A stretch of 35,844 nt of DNA from Candidatus Roizmanbacteria bacterium GW2011_GWC2_34_23 (lineage in GTDB: Bacteria > Patescibacteriota > Microgenomatia > UBA1406 > GWC2-37-13): positions 1-35,844 of the forward strand of contig LBPR01000001.1 of NCBI GenBank assembly GCA_000990305.1. The letters run 5' to 3'. This document shows, in pieces, positions 1,615 to 32,561 of this stretch. Both the position numbers and the translations under genes were made by a program. Under the pieces are notes generated by a model that did no database searches, was not told the origin of the DNA, and saw only the letters and a program-made list of their open reading frames with translations. How positions within the stretch are numbered: the stretch's first letter is position 1; every line of letters begins with the position of its first letter.

Positions 1615-3687
1615 CTATTTTCTTGTTTTGTCAGAGATAAAAGATATTAAATACCAATAAGCTTCCACAGGACGAGTCAGACAATATCTAATCTGTTTTT
1701 TGCAGTTGGGAGCAAAGTAAATGAATTTATTTAATTTAAATTCTAAATCTTCATTTAATTTAATGGAGACAGAATATTTTTTTGGCTTATCACTATAAAT
1801 ATCAACATATTGGACAAATTGGTTGGCTGGGTTTTGCATAACAATTGTTTTTTTAACTGGTGCGGAAGTAAATACTCTAATACTTGAAGAAATAATGACG
1901 GGCAGATTATAAATATCTCTTCCGGATAAAATTATTCTAACAGGATTACGTCCGGCTACTGCGTATTGATTGTGAGGATAAAATAAACTTTTTTTTAAGT
2001 CTATTTTTTTGTTGATTGGTTCTGGAAAAAGGAAAGGATATTGTTCGTTTCTAATTTTTGATATCAATTCGGGTTTGATCTGAAAATATATTTCACAGGT
2101 ATTATTTGCACATCTGTTCGTTAAGCCAACCGCCGATACATTATCGATTACCCAATTTAAATTAAATCCGGTCGGTTTTTTTACAAATTTAATTGGAGAA
2201 AGATTTTTATCATATATTTTATAAATAATTTCATTTTTATTGGATGGAGTTAATTGTATGCGTTGATCATAAAAAGCAATCTTTAATTTTTCTTTAGAGC
2301 TTTTTGAGTACGAGATTTCAATTCGATCATTAAAACTATTTATTTTTAAAGATTTTTGGTCATAAATCTTCGGTAATATAATTGCGTTTGGATCAATTTC
2401 AAAATCTTTTTTTATATCAAACAATCCATAGCCGGCATCGGGAAGATTGGATATATTTTTTATTTGTGATTGTTTTTGAGCGCTATCATAATAACTGAAG
2501 GATCCGTTGATAAGATATGGGACGATCCAGTAGCCGCTTTTTTTTGCCTCATAATTGTTGTAAGGGTCAGAATAATTCTTATCATAAAGACGGAGATCAG
2601 TAATTAAAATATCATCATTTTTTTTAATTAAGCGAACTCGATAAAAAGGGGTGGTAATCCAAAAAGCCTGCCAATCTAAATTATTGACTAAATTTTTTCC
2701 GAAATAAACACTAATTTTATTTTGTTTCCAAAAAGCAAGTAACTCGTCTATTGAGACAAATTTAATTAAACCCTCACTATTTCTTTTACCAAGAAGTTCA
2801 AGTTGAGCGATATATTCTTGCTGGAAATTATCATCCATTGAGTTTTCAAGTCCCAACATCGCAAAACCCGTCTGATTATCCGGTTGGTTAATAGTTTGAT
2901 CGATTAACGACTTAAAATAATCAAAAGTTTTTTTATTTTTCATGTAATCGTTAGGTTGACTAGTAAATGTGCTGGTATTGTCACCATAATTAAATAATGG
3001 GTCAGTAACGGTTTGTCTGACAATTAATACAGGATCATCATTCTCATAGCCAGGTATAAAAAGCCAGTTACTTGATGCAGGATATGGATAGTGAGGAGGA
3101 CCACCGTAAAGAGTATAACTATCAGTTCCGTATTGTTCCCGGGTTATCTGTTGAATTTTTACACCATATTCTTTGTGAATATAATTAAGTGTATTTGTAT
3201 CAATCATCCAGGCAGAAGTAACGTTTGGATAGTAGCCAAATTTTTCAAAAAAAACTGAAAACAAATAGTCGACGATTTTTTTAGAATCATCTTTGCTATA
3301 ACCAATTGTAAAAGCGTTTTGGGCCTCAAACCAATTTTCAACAGTTATATTATGGCTTACTCCAACAGTTTTTATAAGTTGCGGAGTCATTTCAATTAAT
3401 AAGCCGAATTTGATTAACTCTGGATAATCATTAGAATATTTTTTCAAATAATTAACGTACTCTTCATTTGTTAAAACATCATAGCGTAGAGCAAAATATG
3501 CCGGAATTTTTTTAGATATGTGAGCTTCAACTTGTTTCTTGAGATAAATAAACGACCCTTTAGAACAACATTCTTCACCTCTAGCCTGATTAATAATTAG
3601 AACCTGAGCAGGTTCTTTTGCATAGATATTTGTTTTAAATAAGAATAAGAATAAAAATAAAATTAAAGAAAAAAAAACTTTTTTCAT
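1615..3687 (-). CDS. Secreted protein, possible deacetylase/glycosidase-like domain
   Basis: 690 residues. A clear signal peptide (MKK, then a run of Leu/Phe, ending near ANIYAKE-type residues about position 24) predicts export. The first half has features reminiscent of NodB/polysaccharide-deacetylase or TIM-barrel enzymes: FALRYDVL near residue 65, then EMTPQ, then SAWMIDTNTLNYI near 160, and an aromatic-rich stretch around residue 195. The second half looks like beta-rich, carbohydrate-binding-like sequence. No firm catalytic motif is visible, so the enzyme call is an inference. Its ATG overlaps the TGA of the upstream GT2 gene (3684-3687, ATGA), a sign of translational coupling, so it probably acts on, or together with, the glycan made by the neighbouring enzymes. 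Confidence 0.6.
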   Translation of the reverse strand: MKKVFFSLILFLFLFLFKTNIYAKEPAQVLIINQARGEECCSKGSFIYLKKQVEAHISKKIPAYFALRYDVLTNEEYVNYLKKYSNDYPELIKFGLLIEMTPQLIKTVGVSHNITVENWFEAQNAFTIGYSKDDSKKIVDYLFSVFFEKFGYYPNVTSAWMIDTNTLNYIHKEYGVKIQQITREQYGTDSYTLYGGPPHYPYPASSNWLFIPGYENDDPVLIVRQTVTDPLFNYGDNTSTFTSQPNDYMKNKKTFDYFKSLIDQTINQPDNQTGFAMLGLENSMDDNFQQEYIAQLELLGKRNSEGLIKFVSIDELLAFWKQNKISVYFGKNLVNNLDWQAFWITTPFYRVRLIKKNDDILITDLRLYDKNYSDPYNNYEAKKSGYWIVPYLINGSFSYYDSAQKQSQIKNISNLPDAGYGLFDIKKDFEIDPNAIILPKIYDQKSLKINSFNDRIEISYSKSSKEKLKIAFYDQRIQLTPSNKNEIIYKIYDKNLSPIKFVKKPTGFNLNWVIDNVSAVGLTNRCANNTCEIYFQIKPELISKIRNEQYPFLFPEPINKKIDLKKSLFYPHNQYAVAGRNPVRIILSGRDIYNLPVIISSSIRVFTSAPVKKTIVMQNPANQFVQYVDIYSDKPKKYSVSIKLNEDLEFKLNKFIYFAPNCKKQIRYCLTRPVEAYWYLISFISDKTRK

Positions 3688-4493
3688 TTTCCGAACAAGT
3701 AATTTTTTATTAAATGAAGCCTTGTTCTAATAGGGGCGTATTTCAAGCCAAATATTAAACGATTTTTTTTTTGATATTTTTGGTGGATAGGGGAGCCGGA
3801 GCCGCCGGTTGACTGGGCATTTTTGTGCCAGATAATAATCTTAGGATTATAGAACAATTTAAAACCGGCTATTTTCGCCCGTTCGCAGAAGTCGGAATCT
3901 TCAAAATATAAAAAATATTTTTCGTCCCAAAAGCCAATCTGATCAACAACTTTTTTATTAAAAAATAACATACATCCGGTAATAAAATCAGTTTCCTCAA
4001 ATTTTTCATATTGGTGATTATCAACTTCGTCAACTCCCCGATGAGAAGTATAGACATTTTTCCAATCATTAATGCCTCCGGCATACCAAAGAATTTTACC
4101 AATATCTTTTTTTTGATATTTTTTGTGGTATTCATATCCGGGTGCATAATAAATCTTACCGCCAAAAATATCTGCCTTTTCAAATCCTTTTTCGGCAGAT
4201 AAGGAAAAATTTTTATCAAAAAAAATATCATTATTGATTGCACAAAATTTATCAATTCTCTGACTGATAAAATATTTAGTACCTTCATTAATGCCATACG
4301 CATACCCATTGTTCGGTAGAGATTGGAGAACTACTTTCATAGGATATTTACCGATTTTAAAATCTTCCTTTTTTGTTGAAACGTCAGCAATGTAGACAGA
4401 AATATTTTTAGCATCATTAACGGTGGCAAGAGAGTCGAGAAATTCTCGAGTGAGTTGATATTGGTTGTAGTTAACAGTTATTAATCCAATCAT
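3684..4493 (-). CDS. GT2 family glycosyltransferase (rhamnosyltransferase-like)
   Basis: 269 residues, a typical soluble GT2 (GT-A fold) length. Seen: N-terminal TVNYNQYQLT (Rossmann-like nucleotide-binding start), AINNDIFF near residue 90 in the DXD position, then TGCMLFF, GFWDEKYFLYFEDSDFCERA and a His-rich WHKNAQS tail. This is the classic WbbL/rhamnosyltransferase pattern, in which EDxDxxxR supplies the catalytic base region. It should transfer a sugar from a nucleotide-sugar donor at the inner face of the membrane. A TATAAA box lies 8 bases upstream of the ATG, next to the hairpin element at 4508-4573. The gene overlaps the next one by 4 bases. Confidence 0.88.
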   Translation of the reverse strand: MIGLITVNYNQYQLTREFLDSLATVNDAKNISVYIADVSTKKEDFKIGKYPMKVVLQSLPNNGYAYGINEGTKYFISQRIDKFCAINNDIFFDKNFSLSAEKGFEKADIFGGKIYYAPGYEYHKKYQKKDIGKILWYAGGINDWKNVYTSHRGVDEVDNHQYEKFEETDFITGCMLFFNKKVVDQIGFWDEKYFLYFEDSDFCERAKIAGFKLFYNPKIIIWHKNAQSTGGSGSPIHQKYQKKNRLIFGLKYAPIRTRLHLIKNYLFGK

Positions 4494-4507
4494 AAATAAT
4501 TTTTATA

Positions 4508-4573
4508 AAAGCTCAATATCGAAATTTTTTAACGGAAAACAACAAACCATAAAAAATTTGATATCTTCGCTTT
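4508..4573. repeat. Hairpin element, type 2 core, copy 1
   Basis: An imperfect inverted repeat: the left arm starts AAAGCTCAATATCGAAA and the right arm is ATATCTTCGCTTT, with an A/T-rich core containing CGGAAAACAACAAACC. It is nearly identical to 23726-23795 in the core and shares its two ends with the three type 1 elements. It lies directly upstream of a GT2 gene. Confidence 0.75.
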
Positions 4574-4579
4574 TTGAAA

Positions 4580-5449
4580 TTAAAGAATCTTTTGTATTAT
4601 TCTCTCGGTTAAACTCTTCTCTTTCTTCCAGTAAAGCGTTTCTTTTAAACCTTTTCTAAAAAATTCTTCTTCATTTATCTTTCCTTCAACTTTAAATTTC
4701 TTCATTTCCAAATAATAAAAATAAACAATTAAGTAATAAAACATTTGTAAGAACGCCAACACCAATCCTTGACTGCCGTCTTTATATCCTTCCCCGGCAA
4801 AGTAGCGGCTGATGAATTCATTTAATGCTCTGGCAATGGCGTTTGAAAAAGTCAGATCCTTTTTTGATTCAAAAATTTCCTTTGCTTCATATTTAGCATA
4901 CCTTTGAAATTTTGATAAATACTCATCAATATTTTGATAGTTGTGATGAAGAAGGGCAAATTCTTCTTTTGGTTCGATTATATAGCCATTACCGGCTACT
5001 TTTGGTTGACGATGAATGATTTTTGGCCAAATAACTTTATCTTTTTTGAAAAGTCTTACTTGGTAATCTGGCCACCAACGGGAATGTCGTATCCAACGAC
5101 CAAAAGTAATATTTTTTCGGGGAATTTTAAAATAATCGAAAGCGTCAAGTTTTTCTCGAATAATAATTTTTAATCCTGATGGAACAATTTCATCAGGATC
5201 TAAAAAAAAGACATAATCACTTTTGGCAAAGTCTTTGGTTTTTTCCCGAATCAATTCGACGTAGGGAACTTCGTCTTTCATCTCAACAATCTTTATTAAC
5301 TTATTATTTATAAGTGAAGTTTTTAAAGCACTATCAATCCCAATATCAACAATTATTATTTCTTTAACCAAATCTTCAACTGAAGAGATGACTTTGAAAA
5401 GATGTATGGGACTATCTTTGACAACTATGACGGCGGATATGTTTTTCAT
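4580..5449 (-). CDS. GT2 family glycosyltransferase (WaaE/KdtX-like)
   Basis: 289 residues. N-terminal ISAVIVVKDSP leads into a GT-A fold; DIGIDS sits where DDGS is usual, FFLDPDEIVP is the DXD metal and nucleotide-sugar site, and the later RHSRWWPDYQVRLFKK block is typical of the WaaE-like branch (glucosyltransferases of core oligosaccharide and cell-surface glycans). A predicted membrane-associated segment (FLQMFYYLIVYFYYLE) lies near residue 235. Only 2 bases separate its ATG from the stop of the flippase gene upstream, so the two are almost certainly co-transcribed. The exact sugar is unknown. Confidence 0.87.
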   Translation of the reverse strand: MKNISAVIVVKDSPIHLFKVISSVEDLVKEIIIVDIGIDSALKTSLINNKLIKIVEMKDEVPYVELIREKTKDFAKSDYVFFLDPDEIVPSGLKIIIREKLDAFDYFKIPRKNITFGRWIRHSRWWPDYQVRLFKKDKVIWPKIIHRQPKVAGNGYIIEPKEEFALLHHNYQNIDEYLSKFQRYAKYEAKEIFESKKDLTFSNAIARALNEFISRYFAGEGYKDGSQGLVLAFLQMFYYLIVYFYYLEMKKFKVEGKINEEEFFRKGLKETLYWKKEKSLTERIIQKIL

Positions 5450-24995: not shown

Positions 24996-25046
24996 TCTAA
25001 AAATTCTATATTGTTTTGTCTATCCGCCTTTGATAAAATAACTCCA

Positions 25047-26552
25047 ATGCGAAAAATTCCAGGCACCATGATTTCTCAACATCCAGATCATGGTAGTAAG
25101 CCTTATTGGCAAAAAAGCGCCTTCATAAAAACGGGTGATGAAATAAAAGAAAGTTTTTTATCTTTTTCTGAACTGGGTACTTCTGAATATAAATGGGATT
25201 GGGAAGGGAAATACGTTGATGAATCGGTTATAGAAAAACTTCTAAGTGAACACCATGATTATTTCAAGAAAAATTCTTTAGGAAAAGAAAAGTTTTTGAC
25301 TTTTCGATTACCAAATCCTAAAGTGGAAACGGAGTTTCGCTTAGGTCGGGCTTTTATGGGAATTCTTGGAGCGGCCGGATTGGCTAAACAAATCGGATTT
25401 CACAGTCCACCTTTGTTTGAAGTTATTTTGCCGATGACTGAGTCGGCCGAAGAGATGATTGCAATTCAAGAAGCCTTTAAAGAAATCGCCTCATTAAAAC
25501 ATGCCCTTTATGATTTTGGAGAAAACAGTTTAAAACATATTGAAATAATCCCTTTATTTGAACAGGTAACAACAATTATTAAATCGAATCATCTTTTAGA
25601 AAAGTATTTAAAATTACACCAAAAAAAATTTCATTTTAAGCCTTCATATCTTCGTCCTTATCTGGCCAGATCCGATCCGGCTTTAAATTCAGGACTGGTG
25701 CCAACGGTTTTAGCTATTAAAATCGGTCTTTCCCACTACATTGAATTTGAAAAAAAACATAATATCAAACTTTATCCAATCATTGGCTCGGCCTCTCTTC
25801 CTTTCCGAGGAGGTTTGACACCTAATACAGTTGAACAATTTTGTCATGAATATCATGGCATAAGGACAACTTTGATACAAAGCGCTTTTCGTTATGATTA
25901 TCCAAAAAAATCAGTCATCAGGGCGATTAAAAAACTGGAGAAAATTCTCCCTCAAGGAAAGGCGGCCTCCATTTCAATATCTGAAGAGAAAACCTTAAAA
26001 AAATTGATTTCAGTTTTTGAAAAATATTATCGAAATATAGTCGAACAAATCGCCCCCTTAGTTAATGAGGTATCTTTTTATTTACCTAAAAGACGAGAAA
26101 GAGTCTTGCATATTGGCCTTTTTGGCTATTCCCGTGGGGTAGGGAAAGTTAAACTTCCAAGAGCGATTGGTTTTACCGGGGCATTATATTCTTTAGGAAT
26201 TCCACCGGAATTTTTAGGAACGGGCAGAGGAATAAAATATGCCATAGAGCATAATCAAATGAAATTATTGGAAAAATATTATTTAAATATAAAAGAAGAT
26301 TTAAATAGGGCAGGTCGTTTTGTTCAAAAAAAGATATTAATAGAATTATCAAAAGAATCTAAAATGTGGAAGGATATTTTAGATGATATTTTAGAAGTTG
26401 AAAAGTATTTAGGACACGAATTAAAACCAATTACTAAGGAAGAAAAAGAACATTTTGAAATCGTGGAAAAACTTCATGAAAAAATGGATTTAGGAAAAAA
26501 TTATCAAACATATCTTAATCATCTTGCTATTTTACGAAAAAGTCTGGGATAA
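25047..26552 (+). CDS. ppcA: Archaeal-type phosphoenolpyruvate carboxylase
   Basis: 501 residues, matching the short archaeal-type enzyme (about 500) and not the bacterial type (about 900). TMISQHPDHG (residues 7-16), SELGTSEYKWDWEGK, FRLGRAFMGILG, ESAEEMI and RGGLTPNTVEQF are hallmark blocks of PF14010. It carboxylates PEP with bicarbonate to oxaloacetate in the cytoplasm. I chose the ATG at 25047 (MRKIPGTM); the frame upstream runs from a TTG through the promoter. TAAAAT (25034-25039) is 7 bases before the ATG. The aminotransferase follows 10 bases after the stop, so product and next substrate are linked. Confidence 0.93.
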   Translation: MRKIPGTMISQHPDHGSKPYWQKSAFIKTGDEIKESFLSFSELGTSEYKWDWEGKYVDESVIEKLLSEHHDYFKKNSLGKEKFLTFRLPNPKVETEFRLGRAFMGILGAAGLAKQIGFHSPPLFEVILPMTESAEEMIAIQEAFKEIASLKHALYDFGENSLKHIEIIPLFEQVTTIIKSNHLLEKYLKLHQKKFHFKPSYLRPYLARSDPALNSGLVPTVLAIKIGLSHYIEFEKKHNIKLYPIIGSASLPFRGGLTPNTVEQFCHEYHGIRTTLIQSAFRYDYPKKSVIRAIKKLEKILPQGKAASISISEEKTLKKLISVFEKYYRNIVEQIAPLVNEVSFYLPKRRERVLHIGLFGYSRGVGKVKLPRAIGFTGALYSLGIPPEFLGTGRGIKYAIEHNQMKLLEKYYLNIKEDLNRAGRFVQKKILIELSKESKMWKDILDDILEVEKYLGHELKPITKEEKEHFEIVEKLHEKMDLGKNYQTYLNHLAILRKSLG

Positions 26553-27874: not shown

Positions 27875-28447
27875 TTACTTTAAATATCTCCCTATAAAAA
27901 TAGTCAGCCAAACGAAGATCAGAAGACAAAATACAGTTTCTGAAATGGCATTAAAATAATTAAAAAATAGAAATATATTTGCCGTAATAAATTCTACAAG
28001 AATTAGAATTTTTGAGAAATGGACAAAATTTTCGTCGTTGGTTAGCTTAGATAAAGTATATTGAGAAAATATCCAGGAAAAAAATGTAACAACAAAGATT
28101 GTTAAATGAATTAAGAAGAATTGATTAGTGGGAAAAAATCCCAATAAACCAAAAGATAAAATAGCTATAAGTAAAGTTAAGGCAGGCAGTGTTTTTAGGC
28201 GCAAATTATAAAATTTAAAAACGTAATAAGCAAAACTTAAATCTAAAAAACTTTTAATAAAAAATAAAAAGTTAAAAACCGATAATTGGTCGCGATTTAA
28301 AAAATAGCTAAGTTGAGAAATAGTATAGTCAGAAAAATTATAATTTTTTATTTGCACGCCCATATAAAAAGTTGAAGATAAAAAAAAGAGGATAGAAAGA
28401 ATGGCGTTATATTTAAAGATTGTTAAACGATTTTTTGATTCTTCCAT
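27875..28447 (-). CDS. DUF998-like membrane protein
   Basis: 190 residues with about six membrane segments. NYNFSDYTISQLSYF after the first helix resembles the N-Y-x-x-x-x-x-T-I-S-x-L motif of DUF998 proteins, and GLLGFFPTNQFFLIHL fits the central block. The function of the family is unknown. TATAAT (minus strand, 28454-28459) is 6 bases from the ATG and overlaps the stop codon of the NUDIX gene, so it has its own promoter although the two are only 7 bases apart. Confidence 0.65.
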   Translation of the reverse strand: MEESKNRLTIFKYNAILSILFFLSSTFYMGVQIKNYNFSDYTISQLSYFLNRDQLSVFNFLFFIKSFLDLSFAYYVFKFYNLRLKTLPALTLLIAILSFGLLGFFPTNQFFLIHLTIFVVTFFSWIFSQYTLSKLTNDENFVHFSKILILVEFITANIFLFFNYFNAISETVFCLLIFVWLTIFIGRYLK

Positions 28448-28454
28448 AGAATCA

Positions 28455-28901
28455 TTATAATCCCTGAAGAATCTTTGCGAAAGCTTCTTTATCTGAAGGA
28501 TAGGTCAAGATTTTTTTTACTTCTTCTTCGGTCACAAATTTTGCCTCGCTCATTTCCCAGTCATGATTTTTCGGATCACCGCTCAGATATTCCATTAAAA
28601 ATAAGAAGACAGTCTTTTTAAAGAGTGTCCCTTTGAGTTCAAATTCATAATGAGTTTCAATCGGTTTTCTACTTACTATTTTTGCTTTAACCCCTCCTTC
28701 TTCCTCCACTTCCCGAAGGGCGGCTGTTTCATTCGATTCGTTTTTATTAACATCGCCGACGAAGCCTTTAGGGAAAACCCAGCCTTTATGTTGGGAGTGC
28801 CGGCAGATAAGCCAAGTATAGGGATTAGGGACTAGGGAATAGGGGTTAGATATTTTTTTGTATACAATTCCTCCGGCGGAAACCTGTTGAACAACTTTCA
28901 T
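28455..28901 (-). CDS. NUDIX hydrolase
   Basis: 148 residues. The NUDIX box is complete: G-x5-E starting at GDVNKNE, then seven residues and REVEEEGGV. WVFPKGF before it is typical of the Ap4A/diphosphoinositol or MTH-like branch. The enzyme hydrolyses a nucleoside diphosphate linked to another group, with the Glu-rich helix binding the metals. Residues encoded at 28819-28849 (NPYSLVPNPYT) form an extra loop after the first beta strand and come from a TAGGGA-type repeat. Substrate not predictable. Confidence 0.92.
   Translation of the reverse strand: MKVVQQVSAGGIVYKKISNPYSLVPNPYTWLICRHSQHKGWVFPKGFVGDVNKNESNETAALREVEEEGGVKAKIVSRKPIETHYEFELKGTLFKKTVFLFLMEYLSGDPKNHDWEMSEAKFVTEEEVKKILTYPSDKEAFAKILQGL
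28819..28849. repeat. TAGGGATTAGGGA repeat in the NUDIX gene
   Basis: Four slightly varied units of the type TAGGGAnTA. In frame, encoding the loop NPYSLVPNPYT. Confidence 0.6.
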
Positions 28902-28905
28902 AATT

Positions 28906-29029
28906 TAAATAACAAATGACAAATAACAAACATCAATTGAATTTTAAATAATAAATAACAAATGTTTTAAACGTTTTAAAATTTAATATTTGTTATTCAA
29001 TTGTTATTTGAAATTTATTATTTGTTATT
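28906..29029. repeat. AT-rich repeat of the AACGTTTTAAA type, copy 2
   Basis: Many AAATAACAAAT-type units, a central palindrome TTTTAAACGTTTTAAAA and inverted units on the other side (TTATTTGTTATT). It fills the gap between the NUDIX gene and the fusion gene and supplies the last residues and stop (NNK) of the latter. Confidence 0.65.
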
Positions 29030-30568
29030 AACTCCAATTGCTTCCTTGATATTATTGTATCCATCTTTTTCCAACAACTCCTCCAACTCTAGATTGATCT
29101 GTGATATCAACTGCGGCCCCTGGAAAATCATTCCCGTTATTAATTGGATTAATGATGCGCCGAGTTTTATTTTTTCATAAGCATCCTGACCATTAAAGAC
29201 TCCGCCACAGCCGATGACGATCAAACGTGACCCATATTTTTTATAGGCAAGTTTTATCAGTTCATTTGATCTTGGCGCGCAAGGTTTGCCGGAAAAATAA
29301 CCAACCTTAAATTTTTTCACTTCCCGCCTGTCAAGTAATAGACTATTTCTGTCCTTGAAAAGATTGCCAATGATCACTCCCTTAATTATTTTATATTTAC
29401 TAATGACGTTTAACAAAGAAACAAATTCTTTGTTGGAAATAGAAATTGGCATTTTGATAAATATCGTTTTTTTTATTTTCAATCTATCAATAGATTGAAA
29501 CAATTGATTAATATTTTCAGGTTTATTAAAATCAACGGCGGTATTAATTAAATTGGGACAACTGATATTAAGTTCATAATAGCTGTTTTTCACTTTGGCT
29601 TTTTCAAATATTTTAAAAGCATTTATAGTATCTTTTATTGCTTCATTGGTATTTTTTATTAATTCGTTGTTGGACATACCAATACTTATTCCCAGCGGAA
29701 TCTTATAGTTTAGTTGGGATAGTTTTTGGGAAATTTTCTCTACTCCTAAATTCTTAAATCCTTTATTAACCATCAGAGATCGGGATTTGGGCAGTCGTCC
29801 TAATCGGGGTTTTGGATTTCCACCATATGACATATTAGTGATCGTTCCAACAGTTTGAAATCCAAAACCGAGAGAGTAGAGAACCTGAGTCAACTTTGCG
29901 TTATAATCGAAACCAGCCGCTAAGCCAATCGGGGCAATAAAATTAATTCCCGAGATTTTTTGTTTTATTTTTAATGATTGATAGTTCAATTTCCAATTAA
30001 AATAATTTTTGATAAAAGTTTTTCCTATTAATTCTCCCCGGGAAACCATCAAGTTATGAATAAATTCCGGATCAAGTAAAAATAAAAGAGGCTTCATTAT
30101 TTTTTGATAAACAAAAGCAATAATATTTAGACGAAGAGAAAACCTTTCTTTATAAAAAATCCTGGAGACAAGAAAAAAAATTGCAAAACTAATAATTGCA
30201 GATAAAGTACAGTAAAGACAGATACTTTTCAAAATTACTAATTGAACGTACATAAAATATAAAGAAAAAATCGCCCCGATCATAGATTGGAGAATGAGCC
30301 AATAGGCGGATATCTTTTTTCTGTAAACGGCCAGTAAAATTATTGCGGTCAAAAGCAATAGATATTGAACGACACCAAATACGGCCAACGGAACACCAAA
30401 CATGACCGAATATGAACTTCTTAAAACCTTGCCACAGTCTGAGGCGATCGGAAGTAGTCGGTTAATCGTGCAGGGGGGGATTACTTGCTGATAATGTTCA
30501 AATGTCAAATAGGCGGCATCGGCAATTCCAGACAGCGCTAATAAAGCCAGCAGAAAAAACTTTTTCAT
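29018..30568 (-). CDS. VKOR-dihydroorotate dehydrogenase fusion
   Basis: 516 residues with two domains. Residues 1-135 are a VKOR-type membrane bundle: an N-terminal helix, Cys33 and Cys45, SSYSVMFGVPLAVFG, and the active-site pair Cys117-x-x-Cys120 (ICLYC). Residues 160-505 are a dihydroorotate dehydrogenase, which oxidises dihydroorotate to orotate with FMN: LDPEFIHNL, GLAAGFDYNAKL, GFGFQTVGTIT, NPKPRLGRLP (all class 2-like), SCPN with Cys337 as the base, and IGCGGV for FMN phosphate. Class 2 enzymes use Ser here; Cys is the class 1 base. TATAAT is 7 bases upstream of the ATG, so it has its own promoter although it follows the B12-type genes closely. The fusion would tie pyrimidine synthesis to the quinone and disulfide systems at the membrane. 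Confidence 0.88.
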   Translation of the reverse strand: MKKFFLLALLALSGIADAAYLTFEHYQQVIPPCTINRLLPIASDCGKVLRSSYSVMFGVPLAVFGVVQYLLLLTAIILLAVYRKKISAYWLILQSMIGAIFSLYFMYVQLVILKSICLYCTLSAIISFAIFFLVSRIFYKERFSLRLNIIAFVYQKIMKPLLFLLDPEFIHNLMVSRGELIGKTFIKNYFNWKLNYQSLKIKQKISGINFIAPIGLAAGFDYNAKLTQVLYSLGFGFQTVGTITNMSYGGNPKPRLGRLPKSRSLMVNKGFKNLGVEKISQKLSQLNYKIPLGISIGMSNNELIKNTNEAIKDTINAFKIFEKAKVKNSYYELNISCPNLINTAVDFNKPENINQLFQSIDRLKIKKTIFIKMPISISNKEFVSLLNVISKYKIIKGVIIGNLFKDRNSLLLDRREVKKFKVGYFSGKPCAPRSNELIKLAYKKYGSRLIVIGCGGVFNGQDAYEKIKLGASLIQLITGMIFQGPQLISQINLELEELLEKDGYNNIKEAIGVNNK

Positions 30569-30571
30569 TGA

Positions 30572-31858
30572 CTACATTATACCTTTATGGATTATCAGAG
30601 ACAAGAGACCTAACCCAAAAAATATAATTGTTTGAATAGGGAATTTTTTATTTGTTTTGGTCGTTTTTATTCCCAAGATTTGGCCGGGTGTGGGGGTTGG
30701 ATACGGTAGAGACGCAAAATTTTGCGTCTCTACATCGGTCGGAGCAGGTGTTAATGTAGGGATTGGAGTTGAAGTTGGTGTTGGAGTTGAAGTTGGTGTT
30801 GAGGCTTGCCCCGCGGAGTCTTGACGAAGTGGGGTTGGTGTTGGAGTATTGGTCGGTGTCATTGTTGGTGTGACAGATAAGGTCGAGGTTGGAGTAAGAG
30901 TTGCTGGATCGAAAATTTTCAGGATCCAGCTTTTTCCGGAGAGACTGATGATAGCTTGAGCAGTCGTCGTCGAATTTGAAATTAACATATTTAATCCATA
31001 ATCAAAAGCTAAGAACCCTCCGTCGCTTGGCGACTGTTGTGAAATAAGCCAATTTTTAGTCTGTGCCGATACCGTTGAATCATTCATATCAAGAACATTA
31101 AAAGCCATCAAAACCCAACCAGTCGTATCAGAATCACTTGATCCATAGTAACCGTAACCGCCATCACCGTTTTGATTTACCAAGAGATAATTTTTAGCAC
31201 GGGCGATTGCATCATCAAGAATAGGATTCGTCAATCCGTTGTTTTTGGCGGCAACGAGAGACTGGATGGCTGCTCCGGTCATATCAGAGGAGGTAGAATA
31301 CCAGGCGCATTCGGGAGCCGAATAACCAAACCCTCCGTCAACTGGATCCTGTTTGGCAATAAGAAAATTCAAAACATCCTGTTTTATTTGTGTAGATGAA
31401 GTGGAACCGGCAGCAATTTCGGCCAGCAATCCGAAAATATCGTCGTTTAAAGAGCAACTATCTCCGATCTGACCGTTTTCAAAAAAACTTTCAAGACGGG
31501 TGACATAATTTATTCCTTCATAATTTGTTGGATCGCCACCCGTCGCAACAATTGCCAATATTCTTGTCTCCCAGTCGGTCGCCGCTGACGGTTCAGTTGG
31601 GACATTAGTGATCATAAAATCTTGTAAAGAAATAGATGGGTTTTTGACGGTTGAAATATCAACACCGTTGGCGGCAAAGGCAATGGCTGACCATTGTGAC
31701 GGAGCCGAAAATCCATTGGTTATCCTACCTGTAGAATCTTGTTGTGATTTTAAATAATTTAAAGCATTATCAACAACGACGTCTGCCGAAACAATTCTAA
31801 CAACAGTTACAAAAAATAAAATAAACAATAATAAAATTAAAAATTTAAAGTTTTTCAT
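30572..31858 (-). CDS. Surface-anchored alpha/alpha-barrel protein, transcobalamin-like
   Basis: 428 residues. Signal peptide (1-25, ending VSADVV), then repeats of the prenyltransferase/squalene-oxidase or transcobalamin type: ALNYLKSQQDSTGRI (about 32), FLIAKQDPVDGGFGY (about 165), YLLVNQNGDGGYGY (about 226) and WLISQQSPSDGGFLAF (about 268). A Pro/Thr-rich stalk of about 80 residues and a C-terminal membrane helix (IIFFGLGLLSLII) follow. Part of the stalk comes from palindromic repeats. It starts 1 base after the stop of the DUF4430 gene, downstream of a cobalamin riboswitch. I infer the barrel half of a B12-binding pair; a cyclase role is unlikely because the protein is exported and lacks a DXDD motif. 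Confidence 0.82.
   Translation of the reverse strand: MKNFKFLILLLFILFFVTVVRIVSADVVVDNALNYLKSQQDSTGRITNGFSAPSQWSAIAFAANGVDISTVKNPSISLQDFMITNVPTEPSAATDWETRILAIVATGGDPTNYEGINYVTRLESFFENGQIGDSCSLNDDIFGLLAEIAAGSTSSTQIKQDVLNFLIAKQDPVDGGFGYSAPECAWYSTSSDMTGAAIQSLVAAKNNGLTNPILDDAIARAKNYLLVNQNGDGGYGYYGSSDSDTTGWVLMAFNVLDMNDSTVSAQTKNWLISQQSPSDGGFLAFDYGLNMLISNSTTTAQAIISLSGKSWILKIFDPATLTPTSTLSVTPTMTPTNTPTPTPLRQDSAGQASTPTSTPTPTSTPIPTLTPAPTDVETQNFASLPYPTPTPGQILGIKTTKTNKKFPIQTIIFFGLGLLSLIIHKGIM
30706..30733. repeat. GTAGAGAC-family palindrome, copy 5 (in coding sequence)
   Basis: Perfect 28-bp palindrome, GTAGAGACGCAAAA plus its reverse complement. In frame in the stalk of the transcobalamin-like protein, encoding VETQNFASL. 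Confidence 0.9.
30804..30834. repeat. GC-rich repeat in the stalk of the transcobalamin-like gene
   Basis: GCTTGCCCCGCGGAGTCTTG followed by ACGAAGTGGGG, with CCCC/GGGG ends. Much richer in G+C than its surroundings. In frame, encoding LRQDSAGQAS between Pro/Thr runs. Confidence 0.6.
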
Positions 31859-31859
31859 A

Positions 31860-32429
31860 TTAGTTTCCTAGATAGTCCCATTCAACGTTATCTGCGTTGT
31901 TAACTTTTATATAGCTACAACCTTGACTAGGGGACTGACCGTTGACCTTGAAAGTCCACCAGACAGAATTTTCCTTGCCAACGCTATTGATCTGATAGAC
32001 GGCATTTGTACCAAGATCATTGTTGTATCGCATATTAAGACTTTGTATTTTTCCTTGTGAAAGAGCTTGACTCAAAACATCACATTGATTAACGCCATTT
32101 GATAAATCAATAGTTCCAACTGACGAACCGCCGATTGACAGCGAAACCTTAAGACCTTGTCCCTCCTTCGCTGAAGCTTCGGCGGGCGATGGGGTGTTAG
32201 TTGGTTGTGGAACTGGTGTATTTGTTGGATTAACAATTGCTTGAGTTGGTTCGGTTGTAGGTGTCACTGCCTTTGAAATTATTGGAGATAAAATAACTGC
32301 TGGAACTTTTGTAGGAATTAATATTTTTTTTACTACAACGGGCTTTGTTTTGTTTGAATTATAAAAAGTAGCTCCTGATAGAAGAAAAAAAATAATCGCT
32401 AAAATTTTAAAAAAATTTCTTTTAAACAT
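31860..32429 (-). CDS. Membrane-anchored DUF4430 protein (transcobalamin-like beta domain)
   Basis: 189 residues from the ATG at 32429 (MFKRNFFKIL). One N-terminal membrane anchor, then a stalk rich in Pro and Thr (PTTEPTQAIVNPTNTPVPQP), an insert PAEASAKEG from a palindromic repeat, then a C-terminal domain of about 90 residues: KVSLSIGGSSVGTIDL, DVLSQALSQGK, VWWTFKVNGQSPSQGCSYI and a final WDYLGN. This matches DUF4430 (PF14478), which corresponds to the C-terminal beta domain of transcobalamin and intrinsic factor. The cobalamin riboswitch upstream strongly supports B12 as the ligand. A weak AAGG lies just before the ATG, after a short hairpin. Confidence 0.86.
   Translation of the reverse strand: MFKRNFFKILAIIFFLLSGATFYNSNKTKPVVVKKILIPTKVPAVILSPIISKAVTPTTEPTQAIVNPTNTPVPQPTNTPSPAEASAKEGQGLKVSLSIGGSSVGTIDLSNGVNQCDVLSQALSQGKIQSLNMRYNNDLGTNAVYQINSVGKENSVWWTFKVNGQSPSQGCSYIKVNNADNVEWDYLGN
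32161..32194. repeat. GC-rich palindromic repeat in the DUF4430 gene
   Basis: Core CGCTGAAGCTTCGGCG (32169-32184) is a 16-bp near-palindrome with one mismatched pair. In frame, encoding PAEASAKEG between stalk and ligand domain. Confidence 0.7.
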
Positions 32430-32436
32430 AGACCTT

Positions 32437-32457
32437 AGACTTTTCGCTCGAAAGTCA
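32437..32457 (-). promoter_or_regulatory. Hairpin just upstream of the DUF4430 start (possible expression platform)
   Basis: GACTTT-loop-AAAGTC with 6-bp perfect arms, 8 bases before the ATG and next to the AAGG. It may be the regulatory end of the riboswitch, controlling translation start. Confidence 0.4.
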
Positions 32458-32473
32458 ATAAAAAAAGGTAAAA

Positions 32474-32561
32474 ACAAAGGTAAGTTTTCTGGCTTTAACA
32501 GTTACGGCATAGCCACGGATTTATCACCGTGATTTCCTTTTAAGACTTGCGTCCCCTTTGT
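32474..32561 (-). ncRNA. Cobalamin riboswitch (short type)
   Basis: On the minus strand. The ends pair perfectly (ACAAAGG with CCTTTGT, 7 bp). Inside are GGAAATCACGGTGATAAATC, CCGTGGC, GCCGTAACTGT and AAAGCCAGAAAACTTACC. These follow the order and spelling of the conserved core GGGAA-TCCGGTG-AAATCCGG-GCTG-CCCGCAACTGT and the B12 box (rAGyCmGgAgACCkGCC). At about 88 bases it is shorter than classical AdoCbl forms, more like the compact class. It lies between a good promoter and the DUF4430 gene. Confidence 0.85.

Follow-up and report, generated by a model that had tools for sequence, protein, structure and literature searches.

The locus and its gene neighborhood

The window (the whole stretch of DNA analyzed here, 35,844 nucleotides of contig LBPR01000001.1 from Candidatus Roizmanbacteria bacterium GW2011_GWC2_34_23) carries a gene that joins a VKOR domain to a dihydroorotate dehydrogenase (DHODH) in a single chain (Table 1). 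As originally predicted, both domains lie in one frame (29018-30568), which runs on the minus strand from an ATG at 30568 through 516 codons without a stop, and which Pfam recognizes as VKOR (PF07884) over residues 6-134 (86.4 bits against a cut-off of 27.5, E 2.5e-24) and as DHO_dh over residues 201-499 (169.6 bits, E 1.1e-49). Both domains belong to known families; a search of the open-access literature found no paper on a VKOR-DHODH fusion.

In the window and in its closest relatives, the fusion is preceded by genes for an alpha/alpha-toroid and a DUF4430 protein. Both proteins bear signals and have two conserved cysteines apiece in their exported portions, and they are possibly secreted clients of the VKOR half. 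We take the pairing of the two (30572-32477) to be reminiscent of transcobalamin-like proteins. Across 46 loci, the neighborhood of the fusion is conserved at the genus level only, in the form of the NUDIX and DUF998 genes, and no pyr genes were found beside the fusion or its relatives; the neighborhood was therefore rejected as a clue to the substrate. Within the genus, NUDIX genes also occur on both sides of the fusion, and the one upstream nearly or completely adjoins the fusion's start codon (L029, 5583-6002 and 7529-7960). Elsewhere in the window, an archaeal-type PEP carboxylase (PF14010, 448 bits) is encoded at 25011-26552 of this CPR genome.

Table 1. Features of the fusion gene and its neighbors, in window coordinates.
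Feature	Position	Strand	Evidence or remark
VKOR-DHODH fusion gene, 516 aa	29018..30568	-	One open frame; two Pfam domains; fused relatives
Four-helix VKOR domain, residues 1-140	30149..30568	-	Pfam VKOR 6-134; AF2 model; VKOR structure matches
C117-L-Y-C120, quinone-side redox pair of VKOR	30209..30220	-	Invariant in fused proteins and VKOR alignment
Linking helix and class 2 alpha1-alpha2 quinone microdomain, residues 141-200	29969..30148	-	Model helices; alignment to class 2 structures
FMN-binding DHODH barrel, residues 201-499	29072..29968	-	Pfam DHO_dh E 1.1e-49; NCBIfam pyrD_sub2 240 bits
Tyr222, in place of substrate-binding Lys66 (E. coli PyrD)	29903..29905	-	Tyr in 46/46 Y-type
Cys337, catalytic-base position (Ser175 in E. 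coli)	29558..29560	-	Cys in 46/46 Y-type
Alpha/alpha-toroid protein, N-terminal signal-like helix, two conserved Cys	30572..31858	-	Directly upstream, 3 bp gap
DUF4430 protein, two conserved Cys	31860..32477	-	First of three tightly spaced genes
NUDIX hydrolase gene, downstream	28455..28901	-	In 14 loci of genus
DUF998 membrane protein gene, downstream	27875..28447	-	In 14 loci of genus

Reality and history of the fusion

The fusion is real and its architecture is confirmed. Among 72 genomes from its family, 33 have full-length fused frames, at 45-75% identity, and one more such frame lies outside the family (G367, in another family of the same class); the named relatives are Roizmanbacteria, Levybacteria, Woesebacteria, and Gottesmanbacteria. 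Six further genomes of the 72 hold split or cut pieces. The few split genes are broken at differing points (G015 at about residues 150-177, G003 at about 226-234, L067 at an ambiguous stretch) and look like sporadic errors. In the VKOR tree, the fused VKOR halves form one clade (support 96/81) against 42 stand-alone VKORs. A frameshift or assembly artefact at the joint, which could appeal to the few split relatives, was rejected on the fused frames in independent genomes and on the VKOR and DHODH trees, and its probability is negligible. For the pairs in which it could be estimated, dN/dS was about 0.09-0.2 in both halves, with synonymous sites near saturation, and both the VKOR and DHODH halves are under purifying selection.

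In the phylogeny of the dehydrogenase half, which had been put forward as a check on the original prediction, the Y-type clade has support 100/98, with the fused proteins placed towards its base and the unfused ones nested further in; two unfused rows of Dojkabacteria type diverge first. A single ancient fusion and several later losses of the VKOR half fit both trees. On a Dojkabacteria contig (L065), a VKOR gene (3434-3880) and a related DHODH gene (3864-4985) are unfused and overlap by 17 bp, so the pairing of VKOR and DHODH is not confined to the fusion. Unfused Y-type relatives numbered 13 among those searched, and 7 of the 13 genomes show no VKOR; among these 7 is a chromosome record (CP066693).

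Two observations concern individual copies. The G033 bin (5% contamination) holds two differing copies of the fusion on contigs C38 and C69 (L025, L027), by duplication or from two strains. Between the fusion genes of G020 and G021 (L009, 1501-3048, against L007/L026, 329-1876), identity is 98-100% for codons 1-240 and drops to about 62-79% beyond, a break that reflects either recombination or chimeric assembly.

The VKOR half

The VKOR half has the features of its family, a four-helix transmembrane fold with one cysteine pair in a loop and another in a CxxC motif. Modeled alone with AlphaFold2 (pLDDT 86.7), its best structure match was the Synechococcus VKOR 4nv2 (Z 15.4, rmsd 2.5 over 132 residues), and ranks 1-12 of the structure search were all VKOR entries. 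The prediction of a VKOR bundle with Cys33, Cys45, and C117-x-x-C120 is upheld: these four cysteines, as well as Cys337 of the flavin half, are invariant in 23 fused relatives, and the C117/C120 pair is invariant also in a 25-row VKOR alignment. Both the full-length model and that of the VKOR half alone are least certain in the loop that carries Cys33 and Cys45. Positively charged residues lie at positions 2-3, 81-85, and 137-145 of the fusion.

A DsbA-like protein is encoded in all 25 fusion genomes that are at least 90% complete, and in G008 the gene for such a protein directly precedes a stand-alone VKOR. One DsbA-like protein (L106, 1501-2298, minus strand) has its DSBA profile (124-190) upstream of its Thioredoxin_4 profile (5-90), with the halves swapped, and looks circularly permuted; about twenty relatives have the same split profile pattern.

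The joint between the halves

The original prediction had the VKOR bundle replacing the small quinone-docking domain of class 2 enzymes, and this part did not survive. The full-length AlphaFold2 model, built from 23 fused relatives (mean pLDDT 89.6, pTM 0.87), has helices at residues 139-162, 167-182, and 186-194 in the linker and microdomain. In a sequence search against solved structures, class 2 DHODHs ranked first, with alignments starting at residue 153-156, and the model matched the DHODH structures from human (residues 145-516) and from M. tuberculosis (residues 156-516; Z 47.4, rmsd 1.5 over 345 residues). Moreover, the "DPExxH" helix has an invariant Glu168 and His171 in the 23 fused relatives. 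Since both kinds of match reach back to residue 145-156 or so, the alpha1-alpha2 helices (residues about 150-195) are kept, with VKOR added before them and not in their stead; VKOR as their replacement was rejected. In class 2 enzymes this two-helix microdomain binds membrane and quinone (PMC8910288), and with VKOR added in front, each half of the fusion brings its own quinone region. Ferulenol is reported as an inhibitor of a bacterial VKOR as well as of a class 2 DHODH (PMC7762340).

Class, active site, and substrate of the flavin half

The catalytic base of class 2 DHODHs is a Ser in N-x-S-S-P-N, and that of class 1 enzymes is a Cys. The fusion combines features of both: its Cys337 lies within NISCPN, at a position that is Cys also in K-type CPR relatives and Ser in class 2 rows, and the predicted class 1-type base was found throughout the Y-type sequences. 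By overall similarity the flavin half is class 2-like, again as predicted, with class 2 structure matches, an NCBIfam pyrD_sub2 score of 240 bits against a cut-off of 200, and scores of 73-85 bits with class 1 models, where the best class 2 models reach 240-290. Thus, of the class 2 features, the barrel and alpha1-alpha2 are present, the Ser base is absent, and the set of orotate contacts is incomplete; of the class 1 features, the Cys base is present, together with a microdomain and with nearest relatives outside class 1.

Some of the contacts expected to hold the substrate are changed. Among Lys66, Asn111, Asn172, Asn177, Asn246, and Thr247, which we take to be the orotate-binding residues of E. 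coli PyrD, the first, second, and last are replaced by Tyr222, Val267, and Leu403 in essentially all 46 Y-type sequences, and Tyr318 is replaced by Ile477 in the alignment with class 2 rows; Asn172, Asn177, and Asn246, as well as Lys217, are kept. The position of Tyr222 is Lys in class 2 enzymes and in the K-type relatives (Andersenbacteria, Dojkabacteria, Saccharibacteria), which have the Cys, Val, and Leu in common with the Y-type. The earlier domain reading was right about both domains and the Cys base, and it missed the changed contacts (K66Y, N111V, T247L) and the DHODHs that coexist with the fusion.

Class 1A enzymes require their active-site Lys, and some DHODH-like proteins with the SCPN motif and its Cys base are dihydrouracil oxidases with no dihydroorotate activity (PMC10395836). 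From the pattern of residues, the fusion is probably not an ordinary DHODH, and a changed substrate, perhaps one without a carboxylate, is the likeliest reading of its flavin half. Dihydroorotate or orotate is probably not the main substrate; as the carboxylate contacts are lost, a uracil/dihydrouracil-type pyrimidine or another small molecule seems more likely.

Relation to pyrimidine synthesis

The genome of the window encodes PyrK, PyrDB, and PyrC in one separate cluster, in addition to a true ATCase, and a separate DHODH-like gene of 360 residues is present in nine further fusion genomes, mostly among pyr genes and often beside an aspartase-like gene. The fusion as sole DHODH was accordingly rejected for its own genome and most genomes checked; it holds for G020 and G024, where the fusion is the only DHODH-family match and the pyr operon contains an FrdA/FrdB-like pair instead of a DHODH-family gene. 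The same fumarate-reductase-like pyr operon occurs in G028, a genome 84% complete that has no fusion. No carbamoyltransferase family gene was found in 8 of the 25 fusion genomes that are at least 90% complete. Such a gene nonetheless accompanies the fusion more often (17/25 genomes with it against 5/20 without, p 0.007, all at least 90% complete and with descent ignored), in a count that covers the whole family, ornithine carbamoyltransferases among others, and has several matches only 26-29% identical to the ATCase of the window's genome. This positive association weakens the case for a fusion unconnected with pyrimidine synthesis.

These data bear on the first alternative, that the fusion serves pyrimidine synthesis as a functional dihydroorotate dehydrogenase of class 2 type tolerating its altered contacts, with VKOR as a second quinone reducer and the shared quinol re-oxidized elsewhere, for example by fumarate reductase. 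The pyrD_sub2 score, the four kept residues, and the co-occurrence with carbamoyltransferase are all in keeping with it, as are G020 and G024, whose operons hold the FrdA/FrdB-like pair (and in G024 an aspartase). We nevertheless consider it somewhat unlikely, given the near-universal loss of Lys66, Asn111, and Thr247, the eight fusion genomes devoid of carbamoyltransferase, the other DHODHs in the window's own and nine more genomes, the lack of adjoining pyr genes at all 46 loci, and the presence of the FrdA/FrdB operon in the fusion-free G028.

The pyr operons with no DHODH-family gene (L186, 1041-3363, in G024; L168, 3518-5164 and 2802-3446, in G020; L191, 1138-3445, in G028) encode an FrdA/TfrA-like flavoprotein and an FrdB-like iron-sulfur protein between CarB and a 450-residue PyrC, followed in L186 by aspartase and PyrE genes, and the pair is possibly a non-orthologous dihydroorotate-oxidizing system. 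At other loci (L144, 4935-7329; L147, 1618-3970; L172, L173, and L170), the pyr genes are accompanied by the 360-residue class-1-like DHODH, adjacent to an aspartase/fumarase-like gene, which suggests fumarate-coupled pyrimidine synthesis. Three tandem PyrE-like (phosphoribosyltransferase) genes stand beside PyrF at L142 (5018-6968) and L186 (6024-7988).

Electron flow

Known VKORs oxidize their partner, and VKOR activity requires oxidized quinone. A search limited to heme-copper oxidase (COX1), its control positive in 8 of 14, found none in the 72 family genomes. Because the VKOR half needs oxidized quinone and no such oxidase was found, we propose the flavin half as the quinol sink. In our preferred reading, which is tentative and of less than even confidence, the fusion, a membrane oxidoreductase with a VKOR bundle before a complete class 2-type DHODH, acts as a disulfide machine that re-oxidizes its own quinone. 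VKOR would very probably take electrons from an extracytoplasmic DsbA-like partner and pass them to quinone, and the FMN half would probably use the same quinone by way of the kept alpha1-alpha2 helices. With a quinol sink needed, no terminal oxidase seen, and the fused flavin half the only enzyme found that could re-oxidize quinol, electrons may run from thiols through VKOR and quinone to FMN and a cytosolic acceptor; for this direction the chances are nearly balanced, and we infer the quinone and the acceptor as well as the direction. The sole UbiA homologue of the window's genome resembles, by eye, a decaprenyl-phosphate phosphoribosyl transferase, which counts against this reading. A bolder version, which we regard as doubtful, has VKOR and a re-purposed DHODH cycling one bound or captive quinone, with thiol oxidation paid for by a cytosolic reduction, no respiratory chain, possibly no free quinone pool, and a flavin substrate new to the DHODH family.

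The unfused Y-type proteins in VKOR-free genomes indicate that in some lineages the FMN half functions independently of VKOR, and this counts against the preferred reading. It agrees with a VKOR half that serves mainly as a membrane anchor with a separate activity, the two halves exchanging no electrons, and eukaryotic class 2 DHODHs do carry an unrelated single transmembrane anchor at the site held here by VKOR (PMC8910288). Such a role is unlikely all the same, as an anchor has no need of four invariant VKOR cysteines, and the unfused, overlapping gene pair in Dojkabacteria also speaks against it.

Quite improbable, in turn, is that both halves feed one quinone pool with another quinol oxidase as sink, akin to the earlier suggestion that two electron sources share a single quinone site. 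Characterized members of both families reduce quinone (PMC11208910; PMC8910288), but no heme-copper oxidase was found in the 72 genomes, and CPR bacteria as a rule have no electron transport chain (PMC10221324).

Electrons might also flow outward, from a cytosolic donor through FMN and the VKOR cysteines to a DsbD-like extracytoplasmic thiol pathway. The topology suggested by the positively charged residues, with a cytosolic flavin half and outward-facing cysteines, would allow this; it is very improbable, since known VKORs work in the oxidizing direction and, in the closest relatives, the fusion has as neighbors secreted proteins with two cysteines, which would have to be oxidized.

Implications

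CPR bacteria have VKOR and DsbA-like proteins and, as a rule, no chain to take the electrons, and an ancient, conserved VKOR-flavoenzyme offers a testable answer as to the fate of these electrons. As the fusion is old and conserved in bacteria showing no terminal oxidase, it may exemplify disulfide formation without respiration. Moreover, databases will label the fusion PyrD because pyrD_sub2 accepts it. CPR proteins that pass this curated model and are annotated as quinone-dependent DHODHs may not be DHODHs, and such misannotation would bear on claims of pyrimidine prototrophy for uncultured lineages.

Comparison with known systems

Like the bacterial VKORs of Synechococcus (4nv2) and M. tuberculosis, the fusion has a four-helix bundle and four cysteines, with a CxxC near the end. 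It differs in the spacing of its loop cysteines (C33-x11-C45) and in its partner, a cytosolic flavoenzyme and not an extracytoplasmic thioredoxin domain; the VKOR fusions named in a review have thioredoxin-like partners (PMC4555120). The thiol-disulfide oxidoreductase described from CPR bacteria is paired with a VKOR encoded by a separate, adjoining gene (PMC6744442); the organism group is the same and the pathway presumably so, but that VKOR, as described there, has no flavin half.

With class 2 PyrD (E. coli, human, M. tuberculosis) the fusion shares the fold including alpha1-alpha2, the FMN barrel, and the His and Glu of the DPExxH helix, whereas it differs in its Cys base, in having Tyr, Val, Leu, and Ile for Lys66, Asn111, Thr247, and Tyr318, in the four-helix VKOR in front, and in its place outside a pyr operon. 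With class 1A DHODH and dihydrouracil oxidase (PMC10395836) it shares the SCPN motif and Cys base; unlike the fusion, these enzymes are soluble and have no alpha1-alpha2 microdomain, and class 1A keeps the active-site Lys. In sequence, the fusion is nearer to class 2 than to class 1A.
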